Below are positions 4,833-6,880 of a stretch of 64,000 nt of DNA, one piece after another (position 1 is the stretch's first letter; each line of letters begins with the position of its first letter). Location: assembly GCF_001605725.1 (NCBI RefSeq), contig NZ_CP011530.1, positions 1,426,001 to 1,490,000 on the forward strand, written 5' to 3'. The stretch is from Mycobacteroides immunogenum (GTDB lineage: Bacteria; Actinomycetota; Actinomycetes; Mycobacteriales; Mycobacteriaceae). The position numbers and the translations under genes were made by a program. The notes below the pieces were generated by a model. It saw nothing but the letters and a program-made list of their open reading frames with translations, had not been told where the DNA came from and did no database searches.

Positions 4833-5789
4833 CTAGTTGGCGTGGAGCGCTGCGTTCAGCTCGAACGCACCGCCGTCGCGCGACACCACCTCAACCGCCC
4901 CGGTCTGCGAATTGCGCCGGAATAGCAGGTTGTTGGCGCCGGAGAGCTCGAGTGCCTTGATGGTCTTGCCGTCGGGCGTAGCGACCTTGGTGCCCGCGGT
5001 GACATATAGGCCGGCCTCGATGATGCAGTCATCGCCGAGGCTGATGCCCAGGCCGGAGTTGGCGCCCAGTAGCGAGCGCTGACCGACCGAGATCACCTGG
5101 CTGCCGCCGCCGGACAGCGTGCCCATGATCGACGCGCCGCCGCCGATGTCGGAGCCGTCGCCCACCACGACGCCCGCGGAGATTCGGCCCTCCACCATCG
5201 ACGCGCCCAGCGTGCCGGCATTGAAGTTCACGAATCCCTCGTGCATGACCGTCGTGCCGGGCGCGAGGTGCGCGCCGAGGCGTACCCGGTCGGCGTCGGC
5301 GATACGCACGCCCGAGGGCACCACGTAATCGACCATGCGGGGGAATTTGTCGATACCGAACACGGTGACCACACCGCGGGCGCGGAGCCTGGCGCGGACC
5401 GTCTCAAATCCCTCGACCGCGCAGGGGCCGAAGTTCGTCCACACCACGTTGGTGAGCACGCCGAACAGTCCGTCGACGCTGGCGCCGTGTGGCTGGATCA
5501 GCCGGTGCGAGAGCAGATGCAAGCGCAGGTAGGCGTCATAGGCGTCGACGGGCTTGTCTTCCAGCGAGCCAATCGTGGTGCGTACCAACACCTTCTCGAC
5601 ACCACGAGCGGGATCCGAGCCGGCCAGCCCGGCCAGCTCGGCGGATGCTTCCGGCTCGAAGATTCGCTCGGTACCCGGGGTGCCCGGGGTATCGGTCAAT
5701 TCGGGGGCCGGGAACCAGGTATCCAGAACCGATCCGTCCGCCGCGATGGTCGCCAGGCCAAGTGCTACTGCTCCGCTCACGGTGTACAC
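4833..5789 (-). CDS. dapD: Tetrahydrodipicolinate N-succinyltransferase
   Basis: A 318-residue enzyme that succinylates tetrahydrodipicolinate in the succinylase branch to meso-diaminopimelate and lysine. It matches M. tuberculosis DapD (Rv1201c) throughout: [14 protein letters not shown] at the N terminus, [14 protein letters not shown], then the hexapeptide left-handed beta-helix ([45 protein letters not shown]). GTG 5789 gives MYTVSGA, aligning with the recalled tuberculosis MSTVTGA. GTG 5780 is an alternative favoured by a -10 box TAGCGT seven bases upstream of it. The gene is head-to-head with dapE with about 14 bases between start codons. Confidence 0.93.
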
Positions 5790-5806
5790 GCTAGCCTGAA
5801 TCAGTG
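5780..5806. promoter_or_regulatory. Overlapping divergent dapD/dapE promoter with a shared GCTAGC core
   Basis: The palindrome GCTAGC (5790-5795) contributes to two opposing -10 boxes. On the plus strand TAGCCT (5792-5797) is followed by six bases and the dapE GTG (5804). On the minus strand TAGCGT (5793-5788) is followed by seven bases and a dapD GTG (5780). Both fit leaderless initiation, and RNA polymerase could not occupy both at once. Confidence 0.55.
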
Positions 5807-6880
5807 GCGCTTGAACTCGCTGGTGACCCCATCGCCCTGACGGCTGCCCTGGTAGACATCCCCAGTGAGTCCCGTCACGAGGCCGAAATCGCCGATGCGG
5901 TCGAGGTTGCGCTGCGGGACCAGACCAGTGGCTTTGAGGTGATCCGCAACGGCAACGCGGTGCTGGCCCGCACCAACAAGGGCCTCGGCACCCGGGTGAT
6001 GCTGGCCGGGCACCTGGACACTGTGCCCGCCGCCGACAACGTGCCCAGTCGCTGGGAACGTGGGGAGGGCGGCGACATTCTGTTTGGCTGCGGCACCGTC
6101 GACATGAAGTCCGGGGACGCCGTCTTCTTGCACTTGGCTGCCACCGTGACACCCCGCGTCGATCTAACCCTGGTGTTCTACGACTGCGAGGAGATCGAGT
6201 CCTCGGCCAACGGTCTGGGCCGTATCGAACGTGAACTACCCGAATGGCTCGACGCGGACCTCGCCATCCTGGGCGAGCCCACCGCCGGGCTCATCGAAGC
6301 AGGCTGTCAGGGCACCTTGCGCGTGGTCATCCGGGCTGCGGGTACCCGTGCGCACTCGGCGCGATCCTGGCTGGGGGACAACGCCATTCATAAGCTGGGT
6401 ACCGTGCTGGACCGACTTGCCGCGTACCGGGCGCGCATCGTCGACATCGACGGCTGCGAGTACCGGGAAGGCCTGTCAGCGGTACGGATCGACGGCGGTG
6501 TCGCCGGAAACGTCATCCCCGACGCGGCGGCCGTCACCGTCAACTTCCGGTTCGCCCCTGACCGCAGTCCGGAACAGGCGCTCGCGCATGTGCGTGAGGT
6601 TTTCGACGGGCTGGACGCCGAGATCGAACTCACCGACTCGGCCGCCGGCGCGTTGCCGGGCCTGGATCGTCCGGCCGCCGCTGAATTGATCGGTGCGGCA
6701 GGGGGAGTGGTGCGCGCGAAGTACGGCTGGACCGACGTGTCCCGATTCGCGGCTCGCGGCATCGCCGCGGTCAACTACGGGCCGGGCGATCCCAACTTGG
6801 CGCACACGCGTGGCGAACACGTTCCGGTCCGGCAGATCACCGATGTCACCGAGGTGCTTCGCCGCTATCTCAGCGTGTGA
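5804..6880 (+). CDS. dapE: Succinyl-diaminopimelate desuccinylase
   Basis: A 358-residue M20-family metallohydrolase that removes succinate from N-succinyl-LL-diaminopimelate, the step after transamination in the same pathway as dapD. Visible motifs are the metal ligand [19 protein letters not shown] with the bridging Asp, YDCEEIES with the catalytic Glu pair, GEPT, and the late histidine in [15 protein letters not shown]. Length matches the tuberculosis enzyme (354). The start GTG has no Shine-Dalgarno site and is probably leaderless. The 3' end overlaps the convergent AraC-type gene by 11 bases. Confidence 0.95.

Follow-up and report, generated by a model that had tools for sequence, protein, structure and literature searches.

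Bidirectional promoters have been defined as promoters with two transcriptional start sites (TSS) lying 7–25 bp apart (PMC10268837), and among those with a shared −10 element the common distances between TSS are 18, 10, and 23 bp (PMC12825309). In Mycobacterium tuberculosis, a TANNNT hexamer was found upstream of 73% of the primary TSS (PMC3898074), and an RTG codon placed at +1 is sufficient for leaderless translation (PMC4633059). Closely juxtaposed divergent promoters were described as a common feature in the same M. tuberculosis study, where prpD and its divergently transcribed regulator are both leaderless (PMC3898074). Here, we compared with these systems the spacer between the divergent genes dapD and dapE, which is probably a bidirectional SigA-type promoter, where two leaderless promoters, both conserved, have come to share a single TA dinucleotide through compaction.

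The window, i.e., the whole stretch of 64,000 nucleotides that was analyzed, corresponds to bases 1426001–1490000 of a single-contig genome of 5.57 Mb. Profile searches identified the minus-strand gene (4833..5780) as dapD (TIGR03535, 518.8 bits) and the plus-strand gene (5804..6880) as dapE (TIGR01900, 513.7 bits); the 5′ end of dapD was set at a conserved GTG (5780), and that of dapE was predicted from the spacing to its −10 hexamer. Because the best named matches of DapD, in Mycobacterium sp. D16Q14 and Mycobacteroides chelonae, were 93% identical (records very near the window may have been omitted), the source genome was placed in the abscessus-chelonae group. A second dapE-like gene, 50% identical to the first, was observed elsewhere in the genome (G000:C1:4314114-4315157, locus L002).

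A GCTAGC palindrome is located at positions 5790–5795, between the two genes. As proposed in the initial annotation, it supplies TAGCCT for dapE on the plus strand (5792..5797) and TAGCGT for dapD on the minus strand (5788..5793, read from 5793 to 5788). These predicted −10 hexamers lie 6 nt before GTG 5804 and 7 nt before GTG 5780, respectively, and have in common, on both strands, the TA at 5792..5793 (ANNNTANNNT, hereafter offset −1). The idea of a −10 core shared between opposing genes was thus upheld, both by this common TA and by a leaderless spacing conserved on the two sides. In the 12 loci of the abscessus-chelonae clade that were examined, the shared GCTAGC core was always present and a 15-nt block, TACACGCTAGCCTGA (5785..5799), was unchanged, whereas the flanking columns (5782–5784 and 5800) vary; two of these loci, L011 and L033, do not differ in dapD and may represent a single species.

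A simple gene caller chooses another start for dapD, GTG 5789, three codons earlier than GTG 5780, and annotations may therefore carry a longer form of dapD. However, the codon matching 5780 is kept in relatives, TANNNT is found at a fixed distance from that codon, and in locus L005 the GTG matching 5789 is directly followed by an in-frame TAG. GTG 5789 was thus rejected as the dapD start. From these three observations, the start codons of dapD and dapE are most likely separated by 23 bases; the gap of about 14 bases given in the initial annotation presumes GTG 5789 and was not borne out. Its description of hexamers located 6–7 bases from a GTG holds for GTG 5780 and dapE GTG 5804, and is itself inconsistent with a 14-base gap.

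The comparison with relatives relied on a set of dapE matches, which were found in 386 of the 396 genomes searched. The best 30 loci, including that of the window, and the next 80 places were taken from these matches, with G086 passed over; because the best dapE matches were fetched first, close relatives are over-represented in the sample. Starting from 191 loci, 172 were kept after skipping L002 (the dapE paralogue) and 18 loci whose retrieved sequence lacked a match to dapD, and 132 after removal of 40 loci without a dapE anchor, all among the named loci L032–L111. The 132 anchored loci include non-mycobacterial ones, and some genomes are represented twice (by L038 and L118, and by L035 and L157). 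Ten loci lacked one of the two hexamers, leaving 122 for the analysis of offsets.

Comparing dapD/dapE spacers across mycobacteria had been suggested as a check of the shared core, and the placement of the dapD-side hexamer proved to be almost invariant. In 126 of the 132 loci in which both genes were anchored, a TANNNT was found 6–8 nt before the dapD start (6 nt in 3 loci, 7 nt in 64, and 8 nt in 59), compared with a total of 8 matches when the rest of the range from −25 to 59 (82 spacings) was scanned in the same 132 loci. For each locus, a small number of in-frame codons were tried as the dapD start (114 loci fitted at offset 0, 12 at offset 6 or 9, and 6 at none of them), and this choice introduces a mild circularity into the spacing test; L160 was scored as a dapD-side miss and looks like an anchoring error. 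On the dapE side, a TANNNT was located 5–9 nt before an in-frame ATG or GTG in 128 of the 132 loci, in a test that permitted several in-frame starts; the dapE start shifts by several codons between lineages. When dapE was anchored on a conserved protein motif, 98 TANNNT matches fell at the six positions from −17 to −12, versus 36 at 79 others. Among 80 named actinobacterial loci, the dapD motif was present in 74, whereas control spacings of 12–14 gave 0/80, the same 13 in-frame positions being tried for both. The presence of the motif in so many of these loci suggests that the leaderless state of dapD is probably ancient in this phylum.

Shine-Dalgarno tetramers (AGGA, GGAG, or GAGG) at −17 to −6 were found in 0/132 loci before the conserved dapD start and in 1/128 before dapE, and none was present before either gene in the window itself. 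In particular, the outcome that had been named as contradicting the shared core, namely a ribosome site accompanying a conserved dapD start located upstream of 5789, was not found among these loci. Both genes thus combine a TANNNT placed so that +1 can be the R of an RTG codon with no Shine-Dalgarno sequence, and the comparison supports the view that both dapD and dapE are transcribed as leaderless mRNAs. A literature search for mapped 5′ ends of dapD or dapE in any mycobacterium found none among the matches listed; a dRNA-seq study of M. abscessus has been published (PMC4974804).

Among the 122 loci with both hexamers, offset −1, where one TA serves both strands, was the commonest single value (26 loci), and the −10 elements were separate in the 96 others. 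L113 and L176 were counted with the latter, though they too would have offset −1 if dapE started far upstream. The other compact offsets were 2 (2 loci), 7 (11), 10 (3), 11 (4), 17 (2), 19 (4), and 20 (14). Spacer length is very variable, offsets spanning −1 to 340, and the TA steps are at most 40 bp apart in 78 of the 122 loci. An overlap of the 18-bp type (TANNNTA) was found neither among these 122 loci nor among offsets of up to 30 in the source genome. In the two loci with offset 2 (L065 and L103), the −10 elements stand back to back with one base between them (ACCGTACTAGCCT) and are not shared. Inspection by eye also showed that long dapD-dapE spacers (L025, L044, L145, and others) often carry an inverted repeat of the type GAGCAGACGC...GCGTCTGCTC.

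The shared cores are of three kinds, GCTAGC (12 loci), GGTACC (one locus, L022), and GAYTAMC (13 loci). A tree was built from about 480 nt of dapD, with 128 rows, of which 14 lie outside the mycobacteria and 10 have no state. On this quick tree, the grouping of all shared-TA loci (23 distinct shared rows) as a single clade was rejected (p-AU 1.5e-5), whereas joining the GAYTAMC groups (p-AU 0.066) or joining L038, L172, and L043 (p-AU 0.52) was not. The shared or non-shared state changed at least six times, four of these changes being forced by the starred branches. On a cautious count, the shared-TA state would represent three separate groups, on a tree that is blind to gain versus loss; an ancestral shared TA followed by several losses may also be compatible with it.

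A possible origin of the shared state is suggested by the 11 loci with offset 7, in which the TA steps are 8 bp apart, nine of them as TACTGGACTA. Omitting those 8 bp yields a shared core in all 11 loci. For L184, the product, AGATTACCGT, is as in L035, L119, L120, L138, L157, L166, and L168, and this is the only exact match among the 11. Loss of DNA between neighboring TA steps would thus lead to the shared state, and since both hexamers and both −10-to-start spacings survive such a deletion, the shared state may arise in this way. As TA is its own reverse complement, sharing needs only one further fixed base. However, L184 is not a neighbor, on the tree, of the loci carrying AGATTACCGT, and the deletion route is therefore only plausible. 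A wider proposal, to which we give a little under an even chance, is that spacer compaction in mycobacteria repeatedly ends in divergent leaderless promoters sharing a TA, and that at dapD/dapE alone this state was attained several times as the DNA separating two TA steps was lost.

The source genome was also scanned over 1.264 Mb from the window onward, in which a simple caller predicted 1116 genes and 169 divergent pairs. A TANNNT located 6–8 nt from a candidate start was present in 56 of these pairs on the plus side and in 56 on the minus side, while decoy patterns gave 4–27; it was present on both sides in 20 of the 169 pairs, versus 0–2 for six decoys. Offset −1 was found in four of the 169 pairs versus none for the six decoys, of which two (ATNNNT and GCNNNC) allow the same kind of dinucleotide sharing as TANNNT and the other four do not. 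After shuffling of the spacers, the mean was 0.023 shared pairs and 0/300 shuffles reached four, which makes the arrangement as a whole unusual, but shuffling also destroys single hexamers and hence is no test of sharing alone; pairs with predicted starts less than 12 bases apart were scored as zero. If four pairs in 1.26 Mb are typical, the genome may contain approximately 18 shared-TA pairs.

The three pairs other than dapD/dapE consist of a HAD-like phosphatase beside an aminotransferase-like protein (L219:18033-18056), two unassigned proteins (L221:12667-12691), and a glycerate-kinase-like protein paired with a basic membrane protein (L222:16786-16809), the names having been read from the sequence. 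Only in the L222 pair did the arrangement involve the caller's own starts on both sides; in the three others, including dapD/dapE, one or both sides relied on an in-frame start located less than 20 codons or at most 20 codons from the predicted one. The motifs of the L219, L221, and L222 pairs were found only once outside their own genome, in L253, in DNA searches of 31 genomes each, which used queries of 322–323 bases and returned many matches spanning one gene only.

The bidirectional promoter that we propose would work as follows. RNA polymerase is predicted to bind in either orientation, presumably with a SigA-type sigma factor, and would melt the duplex on a single side of the shared TA. 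Transcription would begin on the initial base of the start codon, predicted at 5804 on the plus strand for dapE and at 5780 on the minus strand for dapD, where translation is also predicted to start; these coordinates are 24 apart, and the outcome would be two mRNAs without 5′ leaders. Any −35 regions, which are hypothetical, would lie inside the opposite gene, as previously stated, by geometry alone. This reading draws on the anatomy of the spacer, on the conservation of both hexamers at leaderless spacing, on TA sharing in loci not grouped in a single clade, and on the lack of Shine-Dalgarno sequences.

Two other explanations were considered. It is quite improbable that only one of the two genes is leaderless from this core while the mRNA of the other begins further upstream and carries a leader: an upstream in-frame GTG does exist at 5789 and is the one chosen by the simple caller, but the TANNNT spacing is conserved on both sides, Shine-Dalgarno tetramers are as good as absent (0/132 for dapD and 1/128 for dapE), and L005 has a TAG after the upstream GTG. 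GCTAGC could also be merely a common hexamer that happens to lie in the spacer, its number in the window (8, with 9.84 expected) being ordinary. With the same count, and with GGTACC or GAYTAMC in other lineages, GCTAGC was rejected as a palindrome special in itself; a chance occurrence is nevertheless extremely improbable, as placement with respect to the two starts is maintained across the genus with different cores, and the dapD-side placement over much of the phylum.

The consequences of sharing are a separate matter. The initial annotation argued that polymerase cannot use both promoters at once and that this would create a built-in antagonism between consecutive steps of diaminopimelate synthesis; in that view, selection would have favored sharing because a polymerase bound for one gene obstructs the other, which would balance the two steps. 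Steric exclusion is indeed likely: two polymerases cannot occupy a bidirectional promoter simultaneously (PMC12825309), and with TA steps within 40 bp in 78/122 loci, exclusion would be probable even without sharing. The identity of the shared core in 12/12 clade loci, together with exact TA sharing in loci outside a single clade, is also in line with selection. A regulatory use of exclusion is, however, unsupported. The −10 elements are not shared in 96/122 loci, and competition was slight at basal activity for five bidirectional promoters of E. coli, although strongly activating one direction can repress the opposite one (PMC12825309). In M. tuberculosis lacking crp, where the type of spacer may differ, dapD and dapE were mildly upregulated together (log2 0.67 and 0.62, PMC7938724). 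In addition, DapC acts between DapD and DapE in the pathway (PMC3102117), and the two steps are thus not consecutive. Because competition in E. coli is slight at basal activity, because both genes rise together without crp, and because DapC intervenes, we consider a selected antagonism unlikely.

It is likely, instead, that loss of spacer DNA led neutrally to the shared TA, which would affect regulation only where one of the two directions is strongly activated; this explanation refines the bidirectional promoter proposed here and is not exclusive. The wide variation in spacer length, the 11 loci in which the TA steps are 8 bp apart, the natural shared core obtained from L184 minus 8 bp, and the slight basal competition reported for E. 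coli are all consistent with it. Alone, it fails to explain why offset −1 is the commonest value, which shared descent combined with a small sequence cost may account for. The observation that opened this analysis was thus partly confirmed, in its hexamers and its shared TA but not in its start distance or its consecutive steps; of its interpretation, two leaderless promoters on a shared −10 core agree with the sequence comparison, whereas the built-in antagonism does not.

For the bidirectional promoter with a shared TA, several points follow. The likely dapD start is corrected to GTG 5780. The data suggest that two genes of the lysine and cell-wall pathway can keep leaderless promoters while sharing part of the element melted by polymerase. 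As the distance between these two promoters takes many defined values among relatives, the locus would allow bidirectional-promoter competition in cells to be compared directly in a laboratory mycobacterium and, if the compaction reading is true, offsets −1, 2, 7, 10–11, 17–20, and beyond would form a natural series for the distance of polymerase exclusion. The shared arrangement would be of a known type and may have originated repeatedly in this bacterial group.

Among systems already described, lysG/lysE of M. tuberculosis (PMC5648196) is alike in that divergent genes of lysine physiology have overlapping −10/−35 motifs; it differs, in the part of that report considered here, by an intergenic region of 108 bp, by a regulator facing its target, and by LysG control with lysine, a type of control for which no report concerning dapD/dapE was found in the literature covered. 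In the prpD case, a shared −10 is not described in the portion of the report consulted (PMC3898074), unlike at dapD/dapE. Searches of titles and the beginnings of abstracts returned, among the matches listed, no description of a shared TA at dapD/dapE, which is weak evidence of absence with most subscription papers outside their scope.

The locus resembles the leaderless mycobacterial promoters (PMC3898074, PMC4633059, PMC6448022) in having a TANNNT shortly upstream of an RTG and no Shine-Dalgarno sequence. With the bidirectional promoters of Warman, Grainger, and colleagues (PMC12825309, PMC10268837), it has in common a short piece of DNA with −10 hexamers on both strands. It differs from their E. 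coli and Salmonella examples, as far as these were described in the sections consulted, in that both transcripts are predicted to be leaderless, the two start codons leave the promoter little room, and a −35 element, if there is one, would fall in coding DNA. Opposite-strand −10 elements that overlap or share key bases, a hallmark of these promoters, were found here (TA 5792–5793) and at offset −1 in 26/122 loci. Two hexamers set back to back on one TA give, with the usual spacing, a distance of 23, and with the 6 and 7 nt of the window a distance of 24; the predicted TSS are therefore beside the common 23-bp class and inside the 7–25 bp definition (PMC12825309, PMC10268837). In its anatomy, the dapD/dapE spacer thus appears to fit the bidirectional promoters with a shared −10 element, of the 23-bp class.
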